Positions 16,433 through 39,466 of a stretch of DNA of 44,526 nt are shown one piece after another. The translations under genes and the position numbers were made by a program. This DNA is from Saprospiraceae bacterium. GTDB taxonomy: Bacteria; Bacteroidota; Bacteroidia; Chitinophagales; Saprospiraceae. The stretch lies in assembly GCA_022841745.1 (NCBI GenBank), contig JALHQW010000060.1, positions 1 to 44,526 on the forward strand, given 5' to 3'. The notes beneath the pieces were generated by a model, which worked only from the letters and a program-made list of their open reading frames with translations, did not search any database and had not been told where the DNA came from. How positions within the stretch are numbered: position 1 is the first letter of the stretch; each line of letters starts with the position of its first letter.

Positions 16433-18289
16433 ATGACCATCACCGACCTCATCCAGTCCGCCACCATTGCCGCAATTCAGGAACTCTACGGCGAGACCAT
16501 CCCCGCCGAGCAGGCTGCACCGACCGTCACCCGCAAGGAGTTCGAGGGCGACTATACCATCGTGACTTTCCCGTTCACCCGTTTTGCGAAGAAAAAACCG
16601 GGCGAAATCGCCGAGGAACTGGGTGCGCATTTGGTGAAAAACGTGCCACAGCTCGACCGCTTCAACGTGGTGCAGGGCTTTTTGAACCTCGTGGTCAGCG
16701 ATGTTTTCTGGACGGATTTTTTGGCGCAAATAGCTGACAATCAAGACTTTGGGCAGCTGCCAAAGAACGGCAAAAAAGTGATGATTGAGTTCTGCTCGCC
16801 CAATACCAACAAGCCACTGCACCTTGGCCACGTCCGCAATATCCTGCTGGGCTGGTCTTGTTCCCAAATTTGCGAAGCGGCTGGATATGAAGTAAAAAAA
16901 GTGCAGGTCATCAACGACCGGGGCATCGCCATTTGCAAGAGCATGTTGGCCTGGCAGAAATTCGGCAATAGTGCTACGCCCGAAAGCACGGGCACAAAAA
17001 GCGACCATTTTGTGGGCGACTATTATGTGCTGTTTGAGCAAAAATTCCAGGAAGAATACAAAGCCTGGCAGGCAAGTGCAGATGGGCAGCAGATTTTGGG
17101 TGAAAAACGAAAGGCTGACCAATCGGACGAGCAGTTTTTCAAGGATTTCAAGAACACTTATTTCAACGAATACAGCCTCCTTGGCAAAGAGGCCCGTGAG
17201 ATGCTCCTGCTTTGGGAAGCGCACGACCCCAGTACCATCGCCCTTTGGAAGCGGATGAACCAGTGGGTGTATGACGGCTTCGAGGAGACCTTCCATAATC
17301 TCGGCGTCAGTTTCGACAAATACTATTACGAAAGCGAGACCTACCTGCTCGGCAAGGACATCGTGGAGCAGGGCCTTGCCGCTGGCGTTTTTTACAAAAA
17401 AGAAGATGGCAGTGTCTGGGCCGACCTCACCGATGCCAAGCTCGACCACAAAGTGGTGATGCGCAGCGATGGCACTTCGGTTTATATCACCCAAGACCTC
17501 GGGACGGCGCAGATGCGCTACCACGATTTCGGGGCGGACAAGGTCGTTTATGTCGTCGCCGACGAACAGAACTACCATTTTCAGGTGCTTTTTGAAATCC
17601 TGAAACGCCTCGGCGAGCCTTACGCCGCTGGCCTCCACCACCTCAACTACGGCATGGTGGACTTGCCCACGGGCAAAATGAAGAGCCGGGAAGGCACCGT
17701 CGTGGATGCCGACGACCTCATCTCTGAGGTCATCGCCGAGGCACGGGAAGCCTCAAAGGAGCGGGGCGAAATCGCTGAACTGACCAAGCCCGAACAGGAG
17801 GACATCCTGCGCAAAATCGGCCTCGCTGCGCTCAAGTTTCATATTATAAAGGTGACACCGCAGAAGCGAATGGTCTTTGACCCCAAGGAGAGCGTGGACT
17901 TGCAAGGGCAAACTGGGCCGCATATCCAGTATGCGTATGTCCGGATAAAATCGGTGCTGCGCAAAGCGGGTGAGCAGTTGGCAGTTGGCAGTTGGCAGTT
18001 GGCAGCAGGATACAGCAATTTGCAACCGCAGGAGCGGGAACTCATCGCCCAACTCTACCGATTCCCAGCAACTGTGGAGACAGCAGCCAATAATTACGAC
18101 CCTTCGGAAATCGCCAATTATTGCTATGATTTGGCAAAGGCATTCCACCGCTTTTTTACCGATTTGAGCATTTTGAAGGCGGAAACGGAAGAAGCCAAGG
18201 CATTCCGCTTGCAGCTTTGCGCAGCAGTAGCCAATGTGCTGAAAACGGGCATGGGGCTGCTGGGGATTGAAATGCCGGAAAGAATGTAG
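16433..18289 (+). CDS. argS: Arginine--tRNA ligase
   Basis: 618 residues, a normal length for ArgRS. This class I aminoacyl-tRNA synthetase charges tRNA-Arg with arginine using ATP in the cytoplasm. The N-terminal tRNA-recognition domain covers about residues 1-110. The HIGH motif appears as HLGH (130-133, in NKPLHLGHVRN) and the KMSKS-type loop as KMKSREGT (415-422). The DALR-type anticodon-binding domain fills the C-terminus, ending GIEMPERM. Residues 514-525 (EQLAVGSWQLAA) are encoded by a 7-bp tandem array inserted between catalytic and anticodon-binding domains, and a second 7-bp array lies just before the start codon. The last 84 bp recur, diverged, at 24261-24344. An intrinsic terminator follows at 18356. 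Assignment is certain. Confidence 0.97.
   Translation: MTITDLIQSATIAAIQELYGETIPAEQAAPTVTRKEFEGDYTIVTFPFTRFAKKKPGEIAEELGAHLVKNVPQLDRFNVVQGFLNLVVSDVFWTDFLAQIADNQDFGQLPKNGKKVMIEFCSPNTNKPLHLGHVRNILLGWSCSQICEAAGYEVKKVQVINDRGIAICKSMLAWQKFGNSATPESTGTKSDHFVGDYYVLFEQKFQEEYKAWQASADGQQILGEKRKADQSDEQFFKDFKNTYFNEYSLLGKEAREMLLLWEAHDPSTIALWKRMNQWVYDGFEETFHNLGVSFDKYYYESETYLLGKDIVEQGLAAGVFYKKEDGSVWADLTDAKLDHKVVMRSDGTSVYITQDLGTAQMRYHDFGADKVVYVVADEQNYHFQVLFEILKRLGEPYAAGLHHLNYGMVDLPTGKMKSREGTVVDADDLISEVIAEAREASKERGEIAELTKPEQEDILRKIGLAALKFHIIKVTPQKRMVFDPKESVDLQGQTGPHIQYAYVRIKSVLRKAGEQLAVGSWQLAAGYSNLQPQERELIAQLYRFPATVETAANNYDPSEIANYCYDLAKAFHRFFTDLSILKAETEEAKAFRLQLCAAVANVLKTGMGLLGIEMPERM
17974..18005 (+). repeat. 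In-frame heptanucleotide array (GCAGTTG x4.6) inside argS
   Basis: Four perfect tandem copies of GCAGTTG plus GCAG, inside the coding sequence. Three 7-bp units equal seven codons, so the frame is kept and the product gains a short LAVGSWQLA loop. It sits at the junction of the catalytic and anticodon-binding domains, where an extra loop can be tolerated. Confidence 0.85.
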
Positions 18290-18671
18290 CAGCGTTTTGA
18301 TTTCATTATTTTGCCATACTTTGATTTTCAATTTCAAGGCCTTTTGGCACCAATGAAAAAACCCACTTGCAATAGCAGGTGGGTTTTTTCTTTTCCAATG
18401 CTTCTGGTTCATGCGAATTAATGGATGCAGCAAGTTTTGCTCGTTTCTTCCATGACTTTGGTCAATAAATAAGGTGATTTCCATCATTGTTGGGCCTTTT
18501 GGAAAGCTTGACTTTTACCTTGGTTAATGATGTTAATAACAACTAATTTCAAGCGTAAAAACGGCTGTTTTCCGATTGGTCAAAATTTTAAGTTGAAGGT
18601 GCGAGAAGCCGATTTATTCGAGTTTCACAACTTATCAACTAACCATTTACCCAACTTTTTACATTGAAGGA
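18290..18671. other. argS-kor intergenic region
   Basis: 382 bp holding the argS terminator (18356-18389) and then an AT-rich leader before korA. No ORF is convincing. TACCTTGG near 18517 is a weak -7 candidate for the kor genes, and GAAGGA just before the ATG at 18672 is a possible ribosome site. Confidence 0.4.
18356..18389 (+). terminator. Intrinsic terminator after argS
   Basis: AAAAAACCCACTTGC, loop AATA, GCAGGTGGGTTTTTT: a 15-bp stem with one G-U wobble and a strong T-tract on the plus strand, 67 bp after the argS stop. Its stem is nearly the same as that of the terminator at 25918. Confidence 0.9.
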
Positions 18672-20558
18672 ATGGAATACCTTACCAATATCTTGACGGC
18701 TCCAGCGCCCAATAAAACGGGCAAAAAAATCATTTCACAACACATCGTGGAAATCGTGGCCGACTCTGGGGAGGGGGCACAGAAGGCAGGTCAAAGCTTT
18801 GCTGCTCTAAGCGCTAAAATGGGCAACGGTGTCTGGACAGTAGAAATCATTCCCTCCGACATCGAACCCCCGCCCCGTACCCTCCAAAGCACTTCTGGCA
18901 TCCGTATCCGAATAGGTTCCGGCGTCATCTCAAACGCTGGCGACGAAGCTGACCTCGTGGTAGCATTCAACGAGGTAGCACCCAACTCCCGCATTGAGCA
19001 GGCGGCTTTCAAGGAGGGCACGATTATCTTGCTTGAAAGCGCCTGGGCGAATCACGACGACCCCTCCATCAGGCAGAGCTATGAAAAAGCGCTGTCTGAT
19101 TTCAAAAAAAGAGGCTACGTAGTTTATGAAATCCCGATGGCCGAAGAGTGCCTCAAGTTCGTGGCGGACCCCAAGCGGGGGAAAAACATGTGGGTGCTCG
19201 GCATGTTGAGCTATATCTACAAGCGAGACCTCAGCATTGCAGAAGCACAAATCAGGCTTACTTTTAAAAAGAAATCGGAGGTAGTCGTGGACGCAAACCT
19301 CACCCTGCTACATGCTGGCCACGCCTGGGCCGCCGAAAACCTCGATTTTCAATTTGAAATCCCTTCTATGCCTGCTGACAAAGAACTGGTGGTGATGAAT
19401 GGCAATGAGGCTTTTGCCCTTGGCGTGATGGCTTCCGGCATAGAGGTCTGCTCAATGTACCCCATTACCCCAGCCACTTCAGTTTCCCACATGCTGGCAG
19501 AGTCATTTGAAAAAGTGGGAGGCTTGGTACACCAGGCAGAGGACGAAATCGCCGCCATTGGCTTTGCCATTGGTTCTTCGTATGCGGGGAAAACGGCGCT
19601 GACCGTCACTTCCGGCCCTGGCCTTGCCCTAAAGACAGAGTTTATAGGACTGGCCTCCATGGCGGAGGTGCCGCTCGTCATCATTGACGTGCAGCGGGGC
19701 GGCCCATCTACGGGCATGCCTACTAAAATAGAACAGGGCGACCTCCTTGCTGTGCTCTACGGCCAACCGGGCGACACGCCCAAAATTGCCTTGGCACCCT
19801 CCACCATTGAGGAGTGTTTCCAGTTTGTCATCATTGCCCGGCAAATAGCGGATGCCTTTCGAATCCCGGTTTTCTTGCTCTCCGACTCCAATTTGGCCAC
19901 TGGTGTGCAGCCATTCCCCAAGCCCAAACTCAATGCCGAGTGGATGTCTGCGCCCATAGACCAAAGCCCCTGGACGAAGGGTATCCCTCCCTACAATTGG
20001 GACGAAGAAACGGGCCTGAGCAAACGACCCATTCCCGGCCAACTGGGCGGTGAATATACCCTCACAGGCTTAACGCACAACGAAGAAGGGAAGGTCTCCT
20101 ACTTGCCGGAAGTAAACCAGCGAAGCACGGAGATGCGCAGCCACAAAATCGCCGCTTTCAGTCGCAGCTTGAAGCCGCCTAAACTTTTTGGTGACGAAAC
20201 AGGCGACCTACTGCTCGTCGGTTGGGGCAGCACCCGTGGCGCCATTGAAGAAGCGGTGGAGCGTGCCAACAAACTGGGTGGCAAGGTCTCTTCCCTGCAC
20301 CTACGTTTCCTTAGCCCAATGGAACCGGGTTTGAAGGAGATTTTCAGCCGTTTCAAAAAAGTGATGACCGTCGAAATCAATTACAGCGACGATGTTCATG
20401 CACCCCTCATCACCGAGGAAAACCGCCGCTATGCGCAGCTTGCATGGATACTGCGGGCAAGGACTTTGGTGGACATTGACTGCTACTCTGTCGTACACGG
20501 ACAGCCGTTGAAGCCGAGGTATATTTTAGAAAGGATAAAACAGGAAATCAATCTGTAA
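18672..20558 (+). CDS. korA: 2-oxoacid:ferredoxin oxidoreductase, fused gamma-alpha subunit (KorA type)
   Basis: 628 residues. Together with KorB it forms the enzyme that oxidatively decarboxylates a 2-oxoacid (2-oxoglutarate most likely) to the acyl-CoA while reducing ferredoxin, or runs in reverse. Residues about 25-215 are the gamma domain (SGEGAQKAGQSFA at 32-44). The alpha pyrimidine-binding domain follows, with the hallmark YPITPATS (about 263-270), EDEIAAIGFAIGSSYAGKTALT and QRGGPSTGMPTK (about 340-351); the C-terminal domain II includes GWGSTRGAIEEAV. The gamma-alpha fusion is the usual form in Bacteroidota and other KorAB enzymes. ATG with GAAGGA just upstream. korB starts 27 bp after its stop. 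The 2-oxoglutarate preference is an inference from subunit layout; pyruvate or other 2-oxoacids cannot be excluded. Confidence 0.92.
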   Translation: MEYLTNILTAPAPNKTGKKIISQHIVEIVADSGEGAQKAGQSFAALSAKMGNGVWTVEIIPSDIEPPPRTLQSTSGIRIRIGSGVISNAGDEADLVVAFNEVAPNSRIEQAAFKEGTIILLESAWANHDDPSIRQSYEKALSDFKKRGYVVYEIPMAEECLKFVADPKRGKNMWVLGMLSYIYKRDLSIAEAQIRLTFKKKSEVVVDANLTLLHAGHAWAAENLDFQFEIPSMPADKELVVMNGNEAFALGVMASGIEVCSMYPITPATSVSHMLAESFEKVGGLVHQAEDEIAAIGFAIGSSYAGKTALTVTSGPGLALKTEFIGLASMAEVPLVIIDVQRGGPSTGMPTKIEQGDLLAVLYGQPGDTPKIALAPSTIEECFQFVIIARQIADAFRIPVFLLSDSNLATGVQPFPKPKLNAEWMSAPIDQSPWTKGIPPYNWDEETGLSKRPIPGQLGGEYTLTGLTHNEEGKVSYLPEVNQRSTEMRSHKIAAFSRSLKPPKLFGDETGDLLLVGWGSTRGAIEEAVERANKLGGKVSSLHLRFLSPMEPGLKEIFSRFKKVMTVEINYSDDVHAPLITEENRRYAQLAWILRARTLVDIDCYSVVHGQPLKPRYILERIKQEINL

Positions 20559-20585
20559 TTCCCTAATTCAAGAATCATTGATACC

Positions 20586-21542
20586 ATGTTTGGAATAAAT
20601 ACTGATTTCTGCATCATTGACGGCCCTGAAACCCATCACCTTCAGAGCGACTACGAAAAAGGTATCGCCCGCTGGTGCCCCGGCTGCGGCGACCACTCCG
20701 TGCTGCAAGCCGTGCAGCGGCTGTGCGCAGAAAAACAATTGCCGCCAGAAAAAACGGTGTTCGTTTCCGGTATTGGCTGTTCCAGCCGCTTCCCGCACTA
20801 TATGAATACGTACGGGTTCCATGGACTGCACGGGCGGGCATTCCCAGTAGCCGAGGGTGTCAAGTTTCGCCGGCCCGACTTGCATGTGTTCGTGGTGACG
20901 GGAGACGGCGATTGTTGTTCCATCGGCGCTGGGCACTGGCTGCACGCCATCCGGTACAACATGAACTTGACCGTGCTGCTGTTCGACAACCAGATTTACG
21001 GCATGACCAAAAAGCAGACCTCCCCGACCTCGCCGATGGGCACCATCTCCAACACCCACCCAGAGGGATCAGTGCTGCCACCCGTCAACCCCATCCAGAC
21101 GACGCTCGGCGTCTCGAACGTCAGCTTCGTTGCGCAGACCGCAGACTGGGTGCCTAACCACCTTTACGCCACCATCAAGGCAGCATACGAGCATCAGGGG
21201 TTTTCTTTTGTAAGGATATCCATGCGCTGCCCAAAGTTCATGGCAGAGTATGCCAAGCAAAAAGTCTCTGAGCGGGGGAGCGTGCAACTCCTTTTACACG
21301 AAAACGGCATCCAACCCGATGAGGCGACCAAAGGCATGTTCACCCACCAGGTTCAGCACGACCCCACTGACATAAACACCGCCCGGGCCCTCGCCGAGGA
21401 CACCGAAAAAACTTGCCTCGGCCTGTTCTATCAAAATAAGAACGCACTCCGCTACGACCTTTATGGAGCGCACAACATGGGCTTCACGGTGGAGGAAAAA
21501 ATGGCGGCGATAGCGCGGAAACTGGAGGCGTTTGTTGTTTAG
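20586..21542 (+). CDS. korB: 2-oxoacid:ferredoxin oxidoreductase, beta subunit (KorB type)
   Basis: 318 residues, thiamine-diphosphate and iron-sulfur subunit of the KorAB enzyme. The TPP-binding motif GDGDCCSIGAGHWLHAIRYN starts at residue 106, with the Mg-binding Asn in FDNQIYGMT (about 134-141). Four cysteines fit the single [4Fe-4S] cluster of the family: C31 and C34 (CPGCGDHS), C65 (GIGCSSR) and C215 (MRCPKF). The N-terminus lacks a ferredoxin domain, so electrons must pass to a separate carrier; the following gene ends in a ferredoxin domain and is the obvious candidate. Normal length and intact motifs. It is 27 bp after korA and 82 bp before the next gene's ATG, clearly one transcription unit with korA. 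Confidence 0.94.
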   Translation: MFGINTDFCIIDGPETHHLQSDYEKGIARWCPGCGDHSVLQAVQRLCAEKQLPPEKTVFVSGIGCSSRFPHYMNTYGFHGLHGRAFPVAEGVKFRRPDLHVFVVTGDGDCCSIGAGHWLHAIRYNMNLTVLLFDNQIYGMTKKQTSPTSPMGTISNTHPEGSVLPPVNPIQTTLGVSNVSFVAQTADWVPNHLYATIKAAYEHQGFSFVRISMRCPKFMAEYAKQKVSERGSVQLLLHENGIQPDEATKGMFTHQVQHDPTDINTARALAEDTEKTCLGLFYQNKNALRYDLYGAHNMGFTVEEKMAAIARKLEAFVV

Positions 21543-21624
21543 TACAGTCAAGCTGAGGCTCTGCAAAACATGGTAATAAGCACTCTAAGCGCTGCAAAAT
21601 AATAGCAATTTGATTGATAACAAT

Positions 21625-24201
21625 ATGAAAAGCAAGCGGTCCGATACAATCATTTTCACCGAACCCTTCCTAGAAGAAGCAGCCCGGCCTATAGGCATTA
21701 GCTATGTTGAAAGCCCTGTTGCCGACCCTGTGCTGGCGCAAACTATTGCACAACCTACCAGCAGCCTGCCAGTGCTGAACACAACAAGCCCCTCCTCCAA
21801 TGAGGAGCTTCGGTCCTATTGGCGCAAGCTCCGGGCCTTCTTCTACAGCGCCAGGGGCGGCCATTTTCTGGGGGATGATGAAAGAGCGCACCACTACCCT
21901 GCCTTGCTGGCGCCGTACCGCCACCAGTCCCATTTAGAACGCAATTTTCCTTTTTGGATGGAGGAGACCGAGGGCGGGCAGTTCAAACCGCTGAACGAGC
22001 TGCTCACAGCCTGCATTGCCCGCTCCGCACAGGACGAAGCAGCTGCTAAATTATTGAAAGACAACCTATTGCGCCTCAGTGGCATTGTGGAGAAAAAGGT
22101 TGGGTTCGCCGAGGATGCCTATCAGGCATTTGCAGTTATTGACGAAGCGTTGATGGCTCTCGTGGAGCAATCACAGAATGACGGGCTTGAAGGCGAGGCG
22201 TTTATCAACGATGTGAACAACCTGCGCAAGCACATCCCCCGACAAGGACTGCTTCTGCCTTTTTCGCCCAATGTGCCGTTTTACCTCCTTGCTGCTGTGT
22301 TGAGGGAATACCGTACAGAACGCAGCAATTTGCTGCACGACAAAGTCCATAAACTCGCTGCCCAACTGAAGAACCTGCTGGCCGTGGAGCAGGAGAAAAG
22401 CCCCGAAGCCCATTCGCCCGAAAGGCTCAAAAGCACGCTCGGTTTCACCGAACTGCATTTCAACTTTGCTGAAATGGCGTCCGTGATGACGACGGGAGGC
22501 TCGACAGTAATGCCGGAAGAGCGGCTGCACCGAATCGAAAAAATAGTGTCGGTACTGGAAGATATTGGAACTGACTTTTTTCAAAAAAATGCCTTCATCA
22601 TTCTCGCTGCGGAACTGGCAGAAAGCACAAGGGTGGAATGGGAAAAAACCTATGATAAATGTACCGTGTTGGTAGCCCCGAAAGGCCAAAGTTGCCGCCT
22701 CGCCATGCAGGTTTTCGATGAAAAAATGGCAGAAATGGCCACGCTGTTTGCTGCTATCCGCACGGCAGAGCTGGAGATTGGCAACCAGTACTATCAGGAA
22801 ATTCACGGCGATTTCTTCGCTCATTTTGACTGGCATTCATTTACCGCCGAGGAGTTGGTCATTTGCCCACCAATCATACTTCATGCACATGACAACTCAC
22901 TGATAGAGAAAGAATTGAACGAGTTCTCACAACTATTGACCTCCATGCGCCCCGTAAAGATGTTGGTACTGAAACAGGGTGTTGAAGCAGCTGACGGGGC
23001 ATTCACCTTCCGGCATGAACTTAGTGCGATGGCCATTGCGCACCGCAACGCTTTTATTTTGCAATCGGCATCAGTGGCACCTGGGAAATTGGTAGAAGGC
23101 TTCCGGCAAGGGCTGGGCAGTCAGGTTCCATCCCTGTTTTACGTCATTACCCCGAAAGCCTCGGAATCAAACCAGCGCAGCCAAAGCATCTGGACGAGAG
23201 CAGCCATTTTGGGGCGTGAATTCCCAGCTTTCGTTTACAACAGCGAGCAAGGAGAACGGTGGGGCAACCGCTTTAACATCCTTGACAACCCGCAACCAGC
23301 CGCCGATTGGCCGCTGCACAGCTTGCATTTTAGGGATGAAAAAGGTGATGTTCAGTCACTCGATCTGCCATTTACTTTTGCCGATTTTGCAGCTTTGGAC
23401 AGACATTACGCCCAGTATTTCCTCCTTGTACCACCGCAGTTCTGGTCGGAGAACCTCGTCCCGCTCGGCGAATACCTCAACTTTTCGCCGGAGGAGCTAC
23501 ATGCAAAACTGCCCTACATCTGGGTAATTGACGAACAGAACAACCTTCAAAAAGCCGCTGTTGCCTGGCCGCTCGTGCTTACCTGCCGGGAGCGGTTGGA
23601 TTTCTGGCATTACCTTCAAGAAAACGCAGGCATCCACAGCTATCATGTTGAGCAGGCCACCGTGCGCCTCCGACGTGAGATGGAAACCGAATTTTTGAAC
23701 AAAACCGCACAACTCGAAACCGCTTACGCAAAGGCAAAGGAAGCAGAAGTCCGGGTAGCCATAGAACGCATCCTTACTTCCTTGCTTGACATGGACTCGG
23801 CGGAATTGACCGCCACCCTTGCACCTGGCCCTGTTTCAACGGTGATTGCTCCAATAGCAGAACCCCTAAGGGTAGCACCGGCCCCTCAAGCGGCAGCGGA
23901 GAAAGGCTCTCAGCCCGTTGCTCCCAAACAGGAACCTAAGGTGGCCACCTCCCTTGGCGGGCCGTGGATTGAGTCGGCACTCTGCACCTCCTGCAACGAC
24001 TGCGTCAACCTAAACAAGCGCATGTTCAACTACAACGAGAAGAAACAAGCTTTCATCGCCGACCCCAAGGCTGGCACGTTCAAGCAACTGGTGATGGCAG
24101 CCGAGAAATGCCCCGTGTGCATCATCCATCCGGGTTCGCCTTTGAACGCAAATGAACCGGGGCTGGAGGGGCTGATAAAGCGGGCGGAGAAGTTTAATTA
24201 A
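21625..24201 (+). CDS. Large kor-linked protein of unknown function with C-terminal [4Fe-4S] ferredoxin domain
   Basis: 858 residues from ATG 21625 (a TTG at 21610 would add five). No signal peptide or membrane span, so cytoplasmic. Residues about 1-420 are mostly helical and not recognised. Residues about 420-590 contain patches (AIAHRNAFILQSASV, GLGSQVPSLFYVITP, ILGREFPAFVYNSEQG) that recall the tail of the TPP domain of pyruvate:ferredoxin oxidoreductases, without a visible TPP motif. A coiled-coil-like helix (about 675-730) and a Pro/Ala-rich linker (about 735-775) lead to a ferredoxin-like domain with CTSCNDC (C787, C790, C793) and CPVC (C829, C832), enough for one [4Fe-4S] cluster. Same strand and close behind korB, so probably co-transcribed. 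The likely role is electron acceptor or docking subunit for KorAB; this is inference from context and the cluster motif. Confidence 0.75.
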   Translation: MKSKRSDTIIFTEPFLEEAARPIGISYVESPVADPVLAQTIAQPTSSLPVLNTTSPSSNEELRSYWRKLRAFFYSARGGHFLGDDERAHHYPALLAPYRHQSHLERNFPFWMEETEGGQFKPLNELLTACIARSAQDEAAAKLLKDNLLRLSGIVEKKVGFAEDAYQAFAVIDEALMALVEQSQNDGLEGEAFINDVNNLRKHIPRQGLLLPFSPNVPFYLLAAVLREYRTERSNLLHDKVHKLAAQLKNLLAVEQEKSPEAHSPERLKSTLGFTELHFNFAEMASVMTTGGSTVMPEERLHRIEKIVSVLEDIGTDFFQKNAFIILAAELAESTRVEWEKTYDKCTVLVAPKGQSCRLAMQVFDEKMAEMATLFAAIRTAELEIGNQYYQEIHGDFFAHFDWHSFTAEELVICPPIILHAHDNSLIEKELNEFSQLLTSMRPVKMLVLKQGVEAADGAFTFRHELSAMAIAHRNAFILQSASVAPGKLVEGFRQGLGSQVPSLFYVITPKASESNQRSQSIWTRAAILGREFPAFVYNSEQGERWGNRFNILDNPQPAADWPLHSLHFRDEKGDVQSLDLPFTFADFAALDRHYAQYFLLVPPQFWSENLVPLGEYLNFSPEELHAKLPYIWVIDEQNNLQKAAVAWPLVLTCRERLDFWHYLQENAGIHSYHVEQATVRLRREMETEFLNKTAQLETAYAKAKEAEVRVAIERILTSLLDMDSAELTATLAPGPVSTVIAPIAEPLRVAPAPQAAAEKGSQPVAPKQEPKVATSLGGPWIESALCTSCNDCVNLNKRMFNYNEKKQAFIADPKAGTFKQLVMAAEKCPVCIIHPGSPLNANEPGLEGLIKRAEKFN

Positions 24202-24260
24202 AATTGGGTGGCAACCAGCGACATTATTTCAACGGGCCTTGGTTTCCTAAAGGGCGGGCA

Positions 24261-24344
24261 CGCTTGCAGCTTTGCGCTGCCGTGGCCAATGTGCTGAAAA
24301 CGGGCATGGGGCTGCTGGGGATTGAAATGCCGGAAAAGATGTAG
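24261..24344 (+). pseudogene. Duplicated, diverged 3' end of argS
   Basis: 84 bp matching the last 84 bp of argS (18206-18289) at 79 positions, same strand. It still encodes RLQLCAAVANVLKTGMGLLG followed by IEMPEKM and a stop. Three of the five differences are silent third-position changes (GCA/GCT, GCA/GCC, GTA/GTG) and the other two change one Arg codon to Lys. The match begins sharply at the CGC codon and ends at the stop, with no similarity on either side. It has no start of its own and cannot be a working gene. The pattern suggests the end of an argS gene from a related lineage, as left at the edge of an integrated segment. Confidence 0.9.
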
Positions 24345-24427
24345 CCTAACTCGTTGCAGATTAGAAATATCTTAGAAATAAAACATTATGATTAAAATCA
24401 TTAGGACAAAATTCCGAATTGAACTAC

Positions 24428-24456
24428 TTTTGGCTTGTTTTTAGAATAATACTTTG
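24428..24456 (+). promoter_or_regulatory. Possible promoter of the cytochrome c peroxidase gene
   Basis: TTTTG (24428-24432), 17 bp, then TACTTTG (24450-24456), one base short of the TAnnTTTG consensus. It would give a leader of about 80 nt before the ATG at 24542. A 14-bp palindrome lies just upstream (24388-24401). Tentative. Confidence 0.3.
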
Positions 24457-24541
24457 CGCTCGCCTAAATCCGCTCTTTTTGTTTTCCCAATCCTTGTTAC
24501 GGACATTCAGAGTTTTTAGCATTAATAAAATTATAATCTCC

Positions 24542-25888
24542 ATGAAAAAAGCACTGATACTTACTTCAGTGGTAATCTCCACTTTTTGGTTTTCCTGCAA
24601 GAACGACCATGTTGTCACCAGCCTCGACAAAGACCTCGAGGCAGCACTGACAGAAAGCTCCCCAAGTGGCAACATAAGCCACTACATCATGCCGGAGAGC
24701 GACGACTACGATAACCTTCCAAATCAGGATGCAAAGAACCCCGTGACTGCCGCCAAGGCAGAACTTGGGAAACTGCTCTTCTTTGAAACGGGCATTGGCG
24801 TTCATCCCAAGTACGCAATTTCAAAAGAGACTTATTCTTGCAGCAGTTGCCACGTACCTTCCATGTCGTTCACGGCTGGCCGCTTTCAAGGCGTTGCTGA
24901 TGGAGCGGTTGGTTTTGGCGACCACGGTGAGACAAGGGTAAAAAACCCTCACTATGGTGGCTCGGAGGTGGACGCCCAAGGTGCTCGACCATTGCCTACC
25001 ATCAACCTCACCTACGTTACCAATGCACTTTGGGCAGGTGGCTTTGGCTCGTTCGGCACCAACGTCGGCACCGAAGATGTTTGGAACCAGGATACCCTTC
25101 TTGCCATCAACCACAAGGGCTTCGAAGGCTTGGAGGCCAACAACCAGCGTGCCTTGATTGTGCACCGCCAGTTTATGGACAAGGCAATTGCCGACTCACT
25201 TGGCTACACGGCCATGTTCGATGCTGCCTTTCCTGAAATCCCGGAAAGCGAGCGCTACACCATCAAGACCACGGCATTTGCCATTGCTGCCTATTTCCGC
25301 ACCATACTCACCAACGAAGCCCCTTTCCAAAATTGGCTAAAAGGTGATGCAAACGCCATGACCGACCAGCAGAAGCGGGGCGCCGTGTTGTTCTTCACCA
25401 AGGCCGGTTGCAACAATTGCCACAACAGCGCCTCCCTCAACGCCATGCGCTATGAAGCCATTGGCGTGAACAACCTTTTCCAAGGCCCTTATGACGTATT
25501 CCGTACGAACGTGAACGACCTCCGCAATTTTGGCAGGGGCGGGTTCACCAAGCGGGAGGAGGACTTGTTCAAATACAAAGTACCACAACTTTACAACCTG
25601 AAGCATGTCGGTTTCTACTTCCACGGCGCCAGCAAAACGTCCTTGCGTGAAGTGGTCGAGTACTTCAATGCGGGCATTCCAGAGAACACAACCGTTCCTG
25701 CCAGCCAAATTTCCAAAAACTTCCGCCCGCTTGGCTTGACGGAGGAGGAAGTGGATGACCTGACAGAGTTCCTCGAAAACGGCCTGTACGACCAGTACAT
25801 CGAGCGCTATGCACCAAAAGAGGTTATGTCGGGCAATTGCTTCCCGAACAACGATTCACAATCGAGGTTGGACATGGGTTGCAATTGA
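24542..25888 (+). CDS. Di-heme cytochrome c peroxidase family lipoprotein (CCP/MauG)
   Basis: 448 residues from ATG 24542; the frame is open 41 codons further upstream but only this start gives a proper signal peptide (MKKALILTSVVISTFWFSC, lipidation Cys19). Two CxxCH heme-binding motifs, CSSCH at 100-104 and CNNCH at 290-294, with about 190 residues between them, match the two-domain cytochrome c peroxidase/MauG fold. Neighbouring features include GKLLFFETGIG before heme 1, TPTINL-type PLPTINLTYVTNALWAGG, and YFHGASKTSLREVVEYFN near the C-terminus. Members reduce hydrogen peroxide with electrons from small redox carriers in the periplasm, or carry out heme-based oxidations. Convergent with the CHRD-protein gene across a shared terminator. 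Family secure; substrate not proven. Confidence 0.92.
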   Translation: MKKALILTSVVISTFWFSCKNDHVVTSLDKDLEAALTESSPSGNISHYIMPESDDYDNLPNQDAKNPVTAAKAELGKLLFFETGIGVHPKYAISKETYSCSSCHVPSMSFTAGRFQGVADGAVGFGDHGETRVKNPHYGGSEVDAQGARPLPTINLTYVTNALWAGGFGSFGTNVGTEDVWNQDTLLAINHKGFEGLEANNQRALIVHRQFMDKAIADSLGYTAMFDAAFPEIPESERYTIKTTAFAIAAYFRTILTNEAPFQNWLKGDANAMTDQQKRGAVLFFTKAGCNNCHNSASLNAMRYEAIGVNNLFQGPYDVFRTNVNDLRNFGRGGFTKREEDLFKYKVPQLYNLKHVGFYFHGASKTSLREVVEYFNAGIPENTTVPASQISKNFRPLGLTEEEVDDLTEFLENGLYDQYIERYAPKEVMSGNCFPNNDSQSRLDMGCN

Positions 25889-25917: not shown

Positions 25918-25948
25918 AAAACCCACCTGCCTTCGCAAGTGGGTTTTT
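25918..25948. terminator. Bidirectional terminator between convergent genes
   Basis: AAAACCCACCTGC, loop CTTC, GCAAGTGGGTTTT: a 13-bp stem with one imperfect pair that is a G-U wobble on the minus strand, with T-rich ends on both strands. It separates the cytochrome c peroxidase gene (stop 25888) from the CHRD-protein gene (stop 25983). Confidence 0.85.
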
Positions 25949-25982
25949 CTTTTTTTCAATCCTTCTTAAAACTACTTCATTT

Positions 25983-28900
25983 CTATTTTACCACTACAAT
26001 CTTTTGCGCTGGCAAAGTCCCCTCCTCCGTTTTCACGGACAAATAATAGGCACCTGCTGGGTAGTTCATCTCAAAAGGCATAGACTGCAAGCCTTGTTGT
26101 AAGGCGATTGTGCGGGTTTCGAGAATTTGCCCATTGTGGCTGCTCAAAACGACTTGTGCATTTGCCGCTTGTGCTGCCTTGATATGAAGGGTAACAGGTT
26201 CGCCGTTTGTGATATTAGGCAGCAATGACAAACTGAAAATTTCGGATAGTGACTCATTGGTACCAGAAACCACTCCACGGGTGAATAGTGCATCGTTGGC
26301 TTCACCGGGTGTTGCATTAGAACCATCCGTGACCACGATTCGGTGGTAAAGCGTTACGTTGCCACCGACAGCCACGCCGTTCGCCTCCAAAACAGCATCC
26401 AATTCTCCATAAGTGACGGTAGTCAGTAGATTTTCACCAGCTCCCTGCATATAGACCACGTTAGTAAAGTCGGCAGTTGTGGACACCTGCCATACATATA
26501 CCACATTGTCCCCGTCAGGGTCGGTAGCAGGCAGCCAATTGATAGTCAGCAACTCGGTTGGGAGGCCCATTACATTGACTGCTGCACCTGGTAAAGGCGA
26601 GGTCAATTCGCTGACGGTTGGAAAGTAGTTTACTTCGGGCAAAATCTGGCCACGAATCTCCCCACTTGGTTCGGCAGTGGTATGTATGTTCACATAAAAT
26701 TCCCCATTGCGAAGCGAGGCTACTTGGTCTGCCGTGATGGTAAAGGTATTGTTCGCTGCACTATAATCACCGCCTTGCGAGCCAGCATCCAGTGTCGCCT
26801 CCAATTCCAATGCAATTCCACCACTGGTACCCGGCTCACCAATATGGATATGGGAGCCGCCAGCAATGGCCGGGTCGAACTGGCCGTCAAGGTCGTTGAA
26901 ACTGCCAGTAGCTGTCAGCACGTTGCCATTCAATTCGAATTTCATTCCGCCATTCCCATTTGAAATAACTGGGTTTTCTGCATTGACACCCATTAAAGAA
27001 GTATGGAAATAAGCGGCGGCAAGCGGCATCAACTGTCCCCGAACCTCGCCCGCCTGCACGCCGAGGGTGTGAATATTCGTATAAATTTGGCGCTTGCGCA
27101 ATGAGTCGAGGAACCCGTCGCTCATCTCAAACCCATTGAACTGGGCCTCGAAAACGCCGTTCATGAAGTCCACATCAAACGAGGCTTCCAATTCAGCCAA
27201 CACAGCTCCGTTGCTGCCAGCATAACCCGCATGGAAATGCGCCCCACCCAAGAAGTTCGGGTCGAAATCGGTGCCCAATGCAGAAAAAGAACCTAAAGCA
27301 ACAGCCTGGTTACCAGACACTTCCAGTATCATCATACCGCTGGCTGGTACGTTCTCGGCGGGTGTTTGGCTGGCACCACCCAGCGGAGAAACGAAGTAGG
27401 CGGCAGCCTCTGCCAAGAGGTTGCCCCGAATTTCACCACTGGAATTACCGAGCGTGTGGATGTTCACATACGTCTCACGGGCAGTGAGCATTTCCTTGAC
27501 TTCGTCTGTGATATCAAAACGGTTCAGGCTTGGCTCATAAACCCCGCCCCTAAGGTCAGTATCAAGGGTCGCTACCAATGGAATGAGTACCTCGCCTGAC
27601 AGGCCCGGCAAGCCAGCGTGGAGGTGCGTACCGTTCACGATGCTTACGTCAACGCCGGTGCCCAATTCATCGAAGGAGCCGCTCAGGGTCAGGCGATTGC
27701 CTGATACCTCCGCAGCTACCACACCGTGGCCACCGCTGCTCACGTCTGGCACCGATTGGCTGCCCGTCAAATAAGCAGTCAAGAACGCTTGGCTTTCCAA
27801 GAGCAATTGGCCACGTATTTCACCACCAGCGTTTGCCGTTGAATGGATGTTCACGTAAAAACCACGGTTGACAAGGGTCTGTACCTGGGCATCGGTAAGG
27901 GTAAACGTATTGGCAGCCGCCTGAAAAACGCCGCTGCGTTGGTCGGCTTCCAATTCGTAGGTAAGCGCAAAAGCCACGCCGCCGCTCTGCCCTGCCCTAC
28001 CGGTATGGATATGCGCCGCCGAGGCATTGCTTTCCAAACCTTGGAAGGCACCAGAAACCAGCAGCATATTGCCCCGCAATTCGGCTATCACTTGGCCTTC
28101 GGCCAATGAAGTGACAAACGGGTATTCGTTGGCCCCGCTAAGATGTGCCCGATAGACCCCATCTGCATTGCCTACCACCTGTCCACGCAGTTCGCCTGAG
28201 CTATATACCGCCGTATGAATATTTGCATACACCTGGTGCGCTCTTAGGGCTGCAAGTTGGTCAGCCGTCAGAACAAAGGTATTGTCTGCTGCCGCAAAAA
28301 CGCCACCGTACAGGTCGCTGTTGATGGTCGTTTCCAGTCCAAGTGCAATGCCGCCCGTTTGGCCAGCAAGGCCAAAATGGAGGTGTGCGCCTCCGGCAAT
28401 GGCCGCATTGAACTTTCCGTCCAAGTCGTCAAAAGCACCCGATACCATGAGGGTGTCGCCGTGGAGTTCCAGCGCCAAGGCGCCGTGGCTGTTGGAGAAA
28501 ACGGCAGGCACTTCGTTACTGCCAAACAAATTGGTCGTGAAATAATCATCCGCTTCTGGCAGGAGCTGCCCCCTTATTTCGCCGGAGGCGTAAACGGTCG
28601 TATGGATGTTCACATAGAGTTGACGGCTGTTCAGGAGGTCAATCTGAGCTTGTGTTAGGGTAAATGTGTTGAGTGCGGCTGTGAAGGTGCCACCCGTTGC
28701 ATCCGTGCCAGGCGTTGGCACGAGTTCCAATTCAATTCCGCCGTTTTGACCCGCATAGCCCACATGGATATGGGCACCTCCGGCAATGGCGAGGTTAATC
28801 AGGCCAGTCATGCCGCCGTAGTTGCCAGTGACCACGAGCTGGTCGCCCGTGAGCGTAGCCGTAATTTCACCACTGCCTGCGGATGCCACCGGGAAAGCCT

Positions 28901-30626
28901 GGTTATGTCCAGAAAGGTAGGCTACAAAGGTAGTAGAGGGTGGTGGCGGTGTGTCCAGTACCACAGCGATGTTCTTAACAGGAACGCCAAAGCCGATATT
29001 GCCGATAAGCGTGGCGGCTCCAGTCGTCAAATTTACTTCGTAAAAACCATCGTTCATGCCCGTGCCCGTGTTGGCGTTCAGGTAGGCCGTGTTGCTGCCA
29101 TCGGTGTACTCGTAGAAGATGTCGAGGTCAATGGTGGGTGCGCTGGCATTGACCATGATGCCCGATGAGCCGATGGTGTTCAAGGTGCCATTGTTGGGCG
29201 GTATTTGCGTAGCTAACACATTGAGCATCAAATCATAATCGTACAAAGTAGTGGTCGTCGTGCCATTGAAACTATTGATATAAGCACCCGCTCCGATGGC
29301 TGGAACAGCACCGGCATTGGCATCGCCAACCGCATAGTTTAGTGCAATATCAACAGCAGCCACTGCGCCAGTGATTGGGTTCAGGCGGAAATTTGCGCCA
29401 TCTCGGCCCATTACCCGGATTCGGTCAACGGTGGGGTTGAAGTCCATGCTGACAGCGCCCATGCCCGGTTGCAGCATGATGGAATCGGTGCCAACGGCGG
29501 TAGCTGCACCGTTCATCAAGTTGATGGTATAAAGGCGGGCCATGCCGGTCGTGTTGTTGTAGCCGAGGCCAAATAGTTCGCCGGTAGCTGGCCGGAAATC
29601 AAGGCCGACCAATGGTTGCGCAGCAAAAACACCCGATGTTGGCGTGATGGTGCGGATGATGCCCGGCAGGTCAGAGTCAAAGCTGATGAGGTTGTTGTTG
29701 CCAGTGATGGCATAGACAAGCTGGCCGGTCACCTGTGCCGGCACGCTGCGGTCAATGGCCACTGCGATATCGTCCACTGCAAGCGGAAGCGGGATTGGCG
29801 AGAGTGAAGTTGCCAAGCCCGTTGTCAGGTTCACCGTGTAGAAATTGGTAGTGCCCGGCACCCCAGTCGCTGCGCTGAGCAGGGCGATATTGGTCAAGGT
29901 GGTTGGGTTGTAATAAATGTCCATGTCAATGGAATTGGCGGGGGCAGTTATGCCCGATGTGCCAACGGTGTTCTGCGTGCCGTTGTTGGGTGGATTTTGG
30001 GTCGTTAGCACATGTAGTGCGCCATCGTAATTGTACAAAGTAGTTGCACCCGCAGCAATATAGCTGTTGGTGTAAGCTGCTGCCGCAATGAACGGCGTAG
30101 AAGCAGCATTCACATCGGCGGCAGCGTAGGCCAATGCCCCGTCTGTGGCGGCAATCGCCCCAGTGACGGGGTGCAGGCGGTAGTTGGCCGTGTTGCTGCC
30201 CATCACCCGGATGCGGTCAACGGTGGGGTTGAAATCGAAATTGACCTCGCCCATGTTCGGCTGCAGCGTCACCGCTGCCGCACCGATGGCCGTGGCAGCT
30301 CCTGTGACAGTGTTGAGGGTATAGAGCCTTGCTTCACCCGTGGTTTGGTTGTAGCCGATGGCGTAGAGTTGACCCGTGTTGGGCCGAACGTCAATGCCTT
30401 CAATGACTTGGCCGCTGGCTACCCCTGAAATGGGAGTCATGCTAAAAGTTGGGGTTGGCGAGGCCAGGTTGATTGACACCAATGCATTACCCGAAAGGGC
30501 ATACACCAGTTGTGCCTTCGACTCGGACAGGCAACCAATGGCCAGCAAACAGGCTATTATCAGTTTTTGGAACAAAAGGGGGCGTCGAGTTCGGCCCGGG
30601 GAATGTGAGGTAAAAAATAAACTCAT
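25983..30626 (-). CDS. Giant secreted protein: two DUF4394 domains, six CHRD domains, T9SS sorting domain
   Basis: 1547 residues from ATG 30626; the frame is open 18 codons further upstream, but the signal peptide (RPLLFQKLIIACLLAIGCLS) fits this start. Residues about 35-560 hold two copies of a DUF4394-type propeller domain (LVYALSGNALVSINL and LVYAITGNNNLISFD; each with FNPTVDRIRVMG). Residues about 567-1330 hold six tandem CHRD domains of about 127 residues, each with AGGAHIHxGxAG, YVNIHT and GEIRGQLLPEA motifs. A fibronectin-like module (LTINWLPATDPDGDNVVYVW) and a type A T9SS sorting domain end the protein. CHRD domains occur in chordin and in bacterial extracellular proteins of unknown function. 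The gene stands alone, sharing a terminator with the peroxidase. Architecture is clear; role unknown. Confidence 0.9.
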   Translation of the reverse strand: MSLFFTSHSPGRTRRPLLFQKLIIACLLAIGCLSESKAQLVYALSGNALVSINLASPTPTFSMTPISGVASGQVIEGIDVRPNTGQLYAIGYNQTTGEARLYTLNTVTGAATAIGAAAVTLQPNMGEVNFDFNPTVDRIRVMGSNTANYRLHPVTGAIAATDGALAYAAADVNAASTPFIAAAAYTNSYIAAGATTLYNYDGALHVLTTQNPPNNGTQNTVGTSGITAPANSIDMDIYYNPTTLTNIALLSAATGVPGTTNFYTVNLTTGLATSLSPIPLPLAVDDIAVAIDRSVPAQVTGQLVYAITGNNNLISFDSDLPGIIRTITPTSGVFAAQPLVGLDFRPATGELFGLGYNNTTGMARLYTINLMNGAATAVGTDSIMLQPGMGAVSMDFNPTVDRIRVMGRDGANFRLNPITGAVAAVDIALNYAVGDANAGAVPAIGAGAYINSFNGTTTTTLYDYDLMLNVLATQIPPNNGTLNTIGSSGIMVNASAPTIDLDIFYEYTDGSNTAYLNANTGTGMNDGFYEVNLTTGAATLIGNIGFGVPVKNIAVVLDTPPPPSTTFVAYLSGHNQAFPVASAGSGEITATLTGDQLVVTGNYGGMTGLINLAIAGGAHIHVGYAGQNGGIELELVPTPGTDATGGTFTAALNTFTLTQAQIDLLNSRQLYVNIHTTVYASGEIRGQLLPEADDYFTTNLFGSNEVPAVFSNSHGALALELHGDTLMVSGAFDDLDGKFNAAIAGGAHLHFGLAGQTGGIALGLETTINSDLYGGVFAAADNTFVLTADQLAALRAHQVYANIHTAVYSSGELRGQVVGNADGVYRAHLSGANEYPFVTSLAEGQVIAELRGNMLLVSGAFQGLESNASAAHIHTGRAGQSGGVAFALTYELEADQRSGVFQAAANTFTLTDAQVQTLVNRGFYVNIHSTANAGGEIRGQLLLESQAFLTAYLTGSQSVPDVSSGGHGVVAAEVSGNRLTLSGSFDELGTGVDVSIVNGTHLHAGLPGLSGEVLIPLVATLDTDLRGGVYEPSLNRFDITDEVKEMLTARETYVNIHTLGNSSGEIRGNLLAEAAAYFVSPLGGASQTPAENVPASGMMILEVSGNQAVALGSFSALGTDFDPNFLGGAHFHAGYAGSNGAVLAELEASFDVDFMNGVFEAQFNGFEMSDGFLDSLRKRQIYTNIHTLGVQAGEVRGQLMPLAAAYFHTSLMGVNAENPVISNGNGGMKFELNGNVLTATGSFNDLDGQFDPAIAGGSHIHIGEPGTSGGIALELEATLDAGSQGGDYSAANNTFTITADQVASLRNGEFYVNIHTTAEPSGEIRGQILPEVNYFPTVSELTSPLPGAAVNVMGLPTELLTINWLPATDPDGDNVVYVWQVSTTADFTNVVYMQGAGENLLTTVTYGELDAVLEANGVAVGGNVTLYHRIVVTDGSNATPGEANDALFTRGVVSGTNESLSEIFSLSLLPNITNGEPVTLHIKAAQAANAQVVLSSHNGQILETRTIALQQGLQSMPFEMNYPAGAYYLSVKTEEGTLPAQKIVVVK

Positions 30627-31058
30627 GTGGGAATCGGATTTAGTTTCAGTTATAAAATCGCCTGTGGGCCAATCTGCCAACCGTTGAAAAAAGGCAAAGC
30701 GCAGCCATGGGAGCGATGCTCCAATACTGTGATTTTCCCCCTCCTTGAACAGGTTGATTTTAAAAGGACCGCCTGCTTGAATCAGTTATTATAGTTACGC
30801 TGAATGGGACTTCATCTTGGTAGATGAAAACGGTAAATTAAATAAATATGGAATTTGGGGCGGGTGTTTTCGCCTTCTCAATTGTTTACAGGTAGATACG
30901 ACTACACCGATGGGTTCGGATTTCGGATGGGCAATTTTTTTTTTGTAAAATCCTTAGGTCTGGGCTAAAAATAAGATTGGGTGCCGAAAGGTAATCGGCA
31001 CCCAATCCTATTGAGCAATCATGAAAATTGGTCTTGGGGTCATGATTTTGTTGTGGTA
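30627..31058. other. Intergenic region between two T9SS cargo genes
   Basis: 432 bp between the start of the CHRD-protein gene and the stop of the 31059-32144 gene. Apart from the terminator at 30975-31007 no gene or repeat was recognised, and no clear -7 box for the CHRD gene was found. Confidence 0.4.
30975..31007 (-). terminator. Intrinsic terminator after the 31059-32144 gene
   Basis: GATTGGGTGCCGA / TCGGCACCCAATC, a perfect 13-bp stem with a 7-nt loop, followed on the minus strand by a T-rich stretch (CTTATTTTTAG). It lies 52 bp past the stop codon. Confidence 0.85.
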
Positions 31059-39090: not shown

Positions 39091-39154
39091 CTAAGCACAA
39101 ATCATTTCGAAAGGTTGAAAATCTAACCAACCATTTCAAAAACAACATCAGGCC

Positions 39155-39418
39155 AAAACCTGAAAACCCCAAAACCCCAAAACCCCAAAACCCCAAAACC
39201 CGAAAACCCCAAAACCCCAAAACCCGAAAACCCCAAAACCCCAAAACCCCAAAACCCCAAAACCCGAAAACCCCAAAACCCCAAAACCCGAAAACCCCAA
39301 AACCCCAAAACCCCAAAACCCCAAAACCCCAAAACCCCAAAACCCCAAAACCCCAAAACCCCAAAACCCCAAAACCCCAAAACCCGAAAACCCCAAAACC
39401 CCAAAACCCCAAAACCCC
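39155..39418. repeat. 33-copy octanucleotide array AAAACCCC (G4T4 on the minus strand)
   Basis: Exactly 33 tandem 8-bp units. Most are AAAACCCC; unit 1 is AAAACCTG and units 6, 9, 14, 17 and 29 are AAAACCCG. The minus strand reads TTTTGGGG, the repeat of some ciliate telomeres, and could fold into G-quadruplexes. All three minus frames stay open through it, giving long GFWGFGVL-type ORFs that are not real genes. Confidence 0.98.
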
Positions 39419-39466
39419 AAAACTTCACAAACCATTACCCGTACTTGAGCGACCCAACAAAAACAA

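Follow-up and report, generated by a model that had tools for sequence, protein, structure and literature searches.

A partial kor gene cluster beside a displaced argS tail in a Saprospiraceae bacterium: homologous recombination through argS as the probable route

The stretch analysed here, called the window throughout, comprises the 44,526 nucleotides of contig JALHQW010000060.1 from a Saprospiraceae bacterium (assembly GCA_022841745.1; genome G000 in our comparisons). It carries a complete arginyl-tRNA synthetase gene (argS), followed by korA, korB and a gene coding for an 863-amino-acid protein, and then by a second copy of the argS 3' end and by the gene of a MauG-like peroxidase (mauG) (Table 1). 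The 3' end of the complete argS is referred to as tail 1 (copy 1), and the second argS tail, which lies before mauG, as tail 2 (copy 2). The same arrangement was observed in genome G008, which we take to be Saprospiraceae bacterium UBA6168 (argS locus L033). Comparison with relatives shows that the three genes were inserted between argS and mauG, probably by recombination through argS itself.

Table 1. Features of the argS-kor-mauG locus (positions in the window)
Feature	Position	Strand	Basis
argS, complete arginyl-tRNA synthetase, 618 amino acids	16433..18289	+	Pfam tRNA-synt_1d, DALR_1
argS tail copy 1, within the complete gene	18206..18289	+	repeat search, codon comparison
argS-korA linker	18290..18671	+	80% identical to G008 over 353 nucleotides
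Terminator-like hairpin in the linker	about 18358-18394	+	read by eye
TGATTTCCATCA box in the likely korA promoter region of the linker	18475-18486	+	motif search
korA, 2-oxoacid:acceptor oxidoreductase alpha subunit, first inserted gene	18672..20558	+	TIGR03710, 519 bits, above cut-off 482.75
korB, beta subunit (thiamine pyrophosphate-binding)	20586..21542	+	Pfam TPP_enzyme_C; TIGR02177, 227 bits, below cut-off 261.9
863-amino-acid protein with one 4Fe-4S ferredoxin domain at its C-terminus, last of the three inserted genes	21610..24201	+	Pfam Fer4_13
Right-junction spacer, possibly decayed upstream part of the displaced argS tail	24202..24260	+	local alignments against shuffles
argS tail copy 2, displaced native argS 3' end	24261..24344	+	94% to copy 1; 7/84 differences to G011 argS
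Native argS-mauG spacer	24345..24541	+	alignment to empty-site spacers
TGATTAAAATCA box in the native spacer	24389-24400	+	motif search
mauG, di-heme cytochrome c peroxidase / MauG-like gene	24542..25888	+	Pfam CCP_MauG; query began 3 codons earlier, at 24533

The direct repeat formed by the two tails spans 85 nucleotides (18206-18290 and 24261-24345, 94% identity). Over the last 84 nucleotides of argS the copies differ at five sites: three differences are silent (GCA/GCT, GCA/GCC and GTA/GTG), and the two that are adjacent change AGA to AAG (Arg to Lys). When the genome was searched with the tail, two places only were found, copy 2 with an E value of 1.7e-31, and the repeat belongs to one of only three direct-repeat families of at least 45 nucleotides in the whole window; a chance repeat was therefore ruled out. 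Copy 2 lies in an open frame of just 48 codons, and its three silent variants are the argS codons of G011, the nearest sister of G000 in the marker tree. For this reason the silent differences are no proof that both copies were coding in situ, and it seems more likely that they arose in two separate argS lineages, before the copies became neighbours. A recent local duplication was also ruled out, since copy 2 is followed by native spacer and carries the three silent variants of G011, and an assembly artefact was judged unlikely because the assembly of another species, UBA6168, shows the same order. In G008 the two tails differ at 18 of the 84 sites, and the argS tails of G000 and G008 at 16; the small difference between the tails of G000 would thus fit an exchange of sequence between them in the G000 line.

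Of 40 genomes searched with ArgS, our own included, 37 had a match. Two of the 40 (G000 and G008) showed a separate second tail, the double ArgS rows of G012, G014, G018, G028 and G037 being adjacent pieces of one gene. The genes downstream of argS were compared in 20 loci from relatives. In five of them, all from the same genus (G006, taken as Prado044; G001, taken as Tobar13m-G26; G004, G011 and G012), argS was directly followed by mauG, and in one (G008) the kor genes and the second tail stood between the two, as in the window; mauG was not observed in the available sequence of the remaining 14, which for some of them was short. The assemblies of G006 and G011 are incomplete (80% and 85%, respectively), although the empty argS-mauG sites of both lie within single contigs. 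A screen for kor genes and a second tail in 80 named argS loci, with 131 to 10000 bases of downstream DNA per locus, found kor beside argS in one (UBA6168) and a convincing second tail in that locus alone; a candidate in L116 (26% peptide match, E 0.003) was taken as chance.

At the empty sites, the argS-mauG spacer can be aligned with the DNA that follows tail 2 on its right. The G000 spacer (24345-24532) shares 68% identity with its G011 counterpart, against 43-50% with the spacers of G008, G001, G004 and G006. In G008, the spacer following tail 2 has its closest counterpart in G001 (62%), and the spacers of the carriers are 50% identical to each other. Since this spacer is in each carrier nearest to that of its own kin, tail 2 is, as judged from these alignments, the displaced end of the resident argS, and the DNA from tail 2 rightward is native to each carrier. 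By the comparison of empty and occupied sites, the korA-korB-863-amino-acid module is an insertion between argS and mauG. An earlier note on this DNA, made without database searches, had described the 84-bp tail that recurs downstream (79/84, with three silent changes and one Arg-to-Lys change), an intact gene on one side and a displaced 3' tail on the other, and the kor module as the cargo between them. Our repeat search, codon and spacer comparisons and the empty and occupied sites bear out this description, and the argS-peroxidase neighbours without kor that the note expected in relatives were found in five genomes of the genus. It had further stated that the copies diverged while coding and are not a recent local duplication: the second part holds, in view of the native spacer and the G011 variants, and the first does not hold for the copies in their present places, in view of the 48-codon frame.

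The two carriers belong to different subclades and are not sister species. The species tree, obtained from rpoB, gyrA and IF-2 combined in eight genomes (G006 represented by IF-2 only, 31% of the columns), places ((G000,G011),G006) against (G008,(G001,G004)) with all five inner forks starred, and a G000+G008 clade is rejected (p of the approximately unbiased test, p-AU, 1.1e-7). In the argS tree, G000 and G008 come together with a support of 97/96, and the pair G000+G011 is rejected (p-AU 0.0009). The mauG tree, in which two forks are unresolved, rejects G000+G008 (p 2.6e-6), allows G000+G011 (p 0.33) and is compatible with the species tree. Since argS pairs the carriers while mauG rejects the pair, the shared block ends at the displaced tail. 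To explain which genomes carry the module, a single change suffices on the argS tree, whereas the species tree requires two. The species, argS and mauG trees comprised seven or eight genomes, hand-picked from those available, and the tree argument uses one gene on each side of the insertion.

Mosaic breakpoints were found both in argS and in the module (2000 permutations in each test). At the sites that distinguish G008 from G011, the window argS is G011-like up to column 257 (23% G008-like), then G008-like (71-73%), and G011-like again from column 1826, that is over about the last 67 nucleotides (9% G008-like). Each of the two breaks was equalled in 0/2000 permutations, although the search for the one at column 1826 was made in a region of argS selected once the data had been inspected. 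In G008, the linker-korA alignment shows one break, and the gene of the 863-amino-acid protein another at column 852 (window-like fraction 0.24 to the left and 0.77 to the right), with 0/2000 permutations in both cases. Window and G008 are alike in the linker and the start of korA, and again in the last two thirds of the third gene (137/150 over the last full 150 nucleotides). The middle of the G008 module is G001-like. The korA of G008 shares 93.6% identity with the G001 gene and 83.9% with the window gene (these identities, and those of the gene before argS between G000 and G008 or G011, were obtained from joined tblastn pieces, and loci with too little query coverage were dropped). With both ends window-like and the middle G001-like in G008, the module has recombined with other kor genes of the genus. 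The UBA6168 korA is split into two frames at a T run (L033:13215-13260), which is either a real break or an assembly error.

The three inserted genes head a larger cluster in six relatives (G007, G001, G014, G048, G009 and G002; loci L083-L089), where the order is korA, korB, the gene of the 863-amino-acid protein, an rnfB-like open reading frame (ORF), the gene of a PFOR-like protein (about 1250-1310 amino acids) and rnfC. Families of this kor-Rnf cluster were named on G007, and rnfC was assigned by family in all six genomes; rnfD was named in G007, with a like ORF in G014 and G048. In G001 two extra ORFs stand between korB and the third gene and a PIF1-like helicase ORF follows rnfC, the G002 cluster is split over two contigs, and the G009 and G002 stretches end at rnfC. 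At argS, both in the window and in G008, the module stops at the third gene, and everything from rnfB onward is missing from the locus. One rnfC above the cut-off was present in each of G000 and G008; because this sole rnfC sits in a cluster of another type, the remainder of the kor-Rnf cluster was not seen in either genome. The junction on the right is not preserved alike in the two carriers, the stop codon of the third gene being 59 nucleotides from the argS tail in the window and about 10 in G008. The alignment score of this 59-nucleotide stretch (24202-24260) against G011 argS was equalled in 21/500 shuffles, and the scores against the other four targets in 60 to 412 of 500.

The third gene has an alternative ATG at 21625. 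Fer4_13 was the sole Pfam match of its product and the NCBIfam scan gave no match; a profile built from eight relatives matched a solved ferredoxin at the C-terminus (E 4.9e-5), and its two remaining matches had E values above 0.7. A region of the 863-amino-acid protein is weakly similar to the PFOR-like protein (L083:4180-8031; 24-28% identity), and in another Rnf cluster of the genus a single protein of about 1650 amino acids matches parts of it. We also observed repeated AATTGGTGAATTAGTAAATT-like words in the spacers between the kor and rnf genes of G007 and G001 (L083 and L084).

The korA-proximal half of the linker lines up, in a multiple alignment, with the DNA upstream of korA in G001 and G007, including a TGATnnnnATCA box, and on this ground the module probably brought its own promoter; a BLAST comparison of the same half with the same upstream DNA gave no match. 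Of the loci compared, G008 alone gave a match (E below 0.1) to the argS-proximal half, which contains the hairpin.

The reading that we favour, with a probability of about 0.68, is RecA-type recombination by way of argS, in which an illegitimate join may have been the first step and no argS-specific integrase took part. The grounds for it are that no integrase family was found among the 22 window proteins scanned, no reuse of the site in the argS loci and genomes screened and no tail in the plasmid, phage and viral records searched, that the shared block runs through most of argS, and that the breakpoints are scattered. DNA in which argS was joined to kor would have entered the cell, and its left side would have recombined with the resident argS by homology. 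The right side would at first have been attached to the resident argS by an illegitimate junction, at least some 120 nucleotides ahead of the stop codon. The argS end brought in would have kept the gene intact, and the resident one would have remained as tail 2. From then on, tail 2 would give the module two-sided homology, with argS on the left and the argS tail on the right. Later double crossovers via both arms, to which the tree conflict and the breakpoints point, may have carried the module between subclades, and the tails may have exchanged sequence; recombination between the tails would delete the module and restore the empty site. A wider proposal, which we hold to be doubtful, is that of an integrase-free, homology-armed cassette: with the displaced tail as its second arm, the module would need nothing beyond general recombination to enter, leave or be renewed at any argS in the genus.

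Two known processes resemble what we propose. Homology-facilitated illegitimate recombination (PMC3240628) likewise combines homology at one end with an illegitimate junction at the other and places new DNA beside the homologous gene; as described there, it was experimental and gave inserts of about 1 kb together with deletions, whereas the present insert is of about 6 kb, was deduced from comparison and has an unseen donor. Exchange of alleles or cassettes by homologous recombination via conserved flanking genes shares the mosaic breakpoints in a flanking housekeeping gene and a tree conflict confined to a block, but here one of the arms would be a displaced piece of the same gene and not a second conserved gene. 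The likeness to the kor-Rnf cluster of relatives (korA, korB, 863-amino-acid gene, rnfB-like, PFOR-like 1283-amino-acid gene, rnfC) is confined to the first three genes, in the same order, these being the only ones at argS.

Besides the way in which the column-1826 break was sought, several points weigh against recombination through argS as outlined above. The support for the carrier pair in the argS tree falls to 89/87 when G006 is left out. Recombination of argS seems to be general in the genus: the G011 argS groups with G001 and G004 (82/93), and a change in G011 may therefore explain part of the G008-like stretch in the middle of the window argS. No significant break was found in the G008 argS against G001- or G004-like sequence (214 and 365 of 2000 permutations). 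The divergence between the argS genes of G000 and G008 is not significantly higher in the tail (16/84) than in the rest of the gene (215/1773; p 0.088). It is unclear how far the shared block reaches leftward: the gene before argS, a phosphoesterase, is G008-like (75% between G000 and G008, 59% between G000 and G011, 71% between G000 and G001), though the first 257 columns of argS are G011-like. Cues to the direction of transfer conflict, the G001-like middle of the G008 module suggesting G008 as the recipient and the fresh tail 2 of the window suggesting the opposite. A complete kor-Rnf cluster adjoining argS was found in no genome, so the donor is hypothetical. The first event, for which we infer homology to the left and an illegitimate junction to the right, is observed only through its product; PMC3240628 describes such recombination as rare and usually with inserts of about 1 kb.

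An unlikely alternative for the first event is a local rearrangement, in which the kor genes moved to argS within one genome at a staggered break and fill-in made the tail duplication. It would account for the korA-proximal half of the linker, which lines up with korA upstream DNA of G001 and G007, and for the fact that the kor-Rnf remainder was not seen in G000 and G008. However, the tail identity ends at the stop codon, the linker beyond it is unlike the native spacer, and the conflict of the argS tree is left unexplained unless a later transfer is added. Since a local move concerns the first event only and is compatible with later recombinational spread, its odds overlap with those of recombination through argS.

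Still less probable is site-specific integration, the course proposed in the earlier note; in the form considered here, an element with a tyrosine recombinase would have used the argS 3' end as its attachment (att) site and brought a replacement end, the integrase being later lost or acting in trans. The layout of the locus, with a complete gene on one side and a displaced native tail ending at the stop codon on the other, is what such an event would leave, and that part of the proposal stands. In addition, identity blocks of about 250 bp have been described for att sites well inside a gene, as at icd, with the replacement sequence in attP (PMC10111431). The attachment-site and integrase part fared less well. 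As the note had already remarked, no integrase is seen: no integrase or transposase family was matched by Pfam (E up to 0.001) among 22 window proteins, including the three inserted genes, the short ORFs among the 94 listed not being scanned. A search of plasmid, phage and viral collections for the tail, which the note suggested looking for at the ends of other elements, gave no match. A convincing second tail was present in none of the 80 named argS loci other than UBA6168 itself, and with second tails in two of 40 genomes no reuse of the site was seen. The long ORFs of the insert are the three genes that head a chromosomal cluster in relatives. Moreover, the shared block, as the tree conflict and breakpoints show it, extends far into argS, which is not expected from insertion at an att site alone. 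The integration of prophages and islands inside icd, as presented in PMC10111431, is similar in that the incoming 3' end keeps the gene whole and the native end is displaced to the far side, and differs in that here no integrase, phage or island genes, no recurrent use of the site and a shared block deep in the gene were found.

The least probable of the three is an old vertical insertion, according to which the module was already present in the ancestor of the subgroup and tail-to-tail recombination removed it from G011, G006 and the G001/G004 line, the argS tree giving a false picture; clean loss is possible because the tails are direct repeats, and the linker is common to both carriers (80%), but several independent losses are needed, argS pairs the carriers with or without G006 while the species tree rejects their clade, the kor genes of G001 lie in a kor-Rnf cluster elsewhere, and G012, outside the subgroup, is empty. 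A tRNA-linked island was ruled out, as no tRNA was found when the window was searched. Base composition is uninformative as to a foreign origin, since the G+C content of the three inserted genes (53-56%) is similar to that of argS (53.5%) and mauG (52%).

Some further features of the locus were recorded. Exact TGATnnnnATCA boxes occur only twice in the window, upstream of korA (18475-18486) and upstream of mauG (24389-24400), where 0.5 are expected and at least two were obtained in 7/100 shuffles; they are FNR-like. G007 and G001 also have the korA box, G008 has it with one change, and a like box lies upstream of mauG in G011. The terminator-like hairpin after argS resembles one after mauG (25918-25954; 81% over 37 nucleotides), and the post-mauG hairpin is different in G008, G006 and G011. 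Within argS, positions 17974-18005 contain a 7-nucleotide repeat in frame (GCAGTTG, 4.6 copies); at the same spot a palindromic CCTCC-type insert is present in UBA6168, a different short repeat in G006 and a different palindrome in G001, and thus one spot of an essential gene seems, from these sequences, to take up different small in-frame repeats. The two other families of direct repeats of at least 45 nucleotides in the window are an 8-nucleotide tandem array and repeats within a CHRD-domain gene (25983-30680). A tandem array of CCAAAACC, with about 34 copies, lies at 39153-39423.

A duplicated gene end beside an intact gene is, taken alone, no proof of an integrase and an att site. The argS locus of these Saprospiraceae suggests that part of an energy-metabolism cluster can move to another place and another species with no mobile element involved, and that the second homology arm may be supplied by a displaced gene tail.

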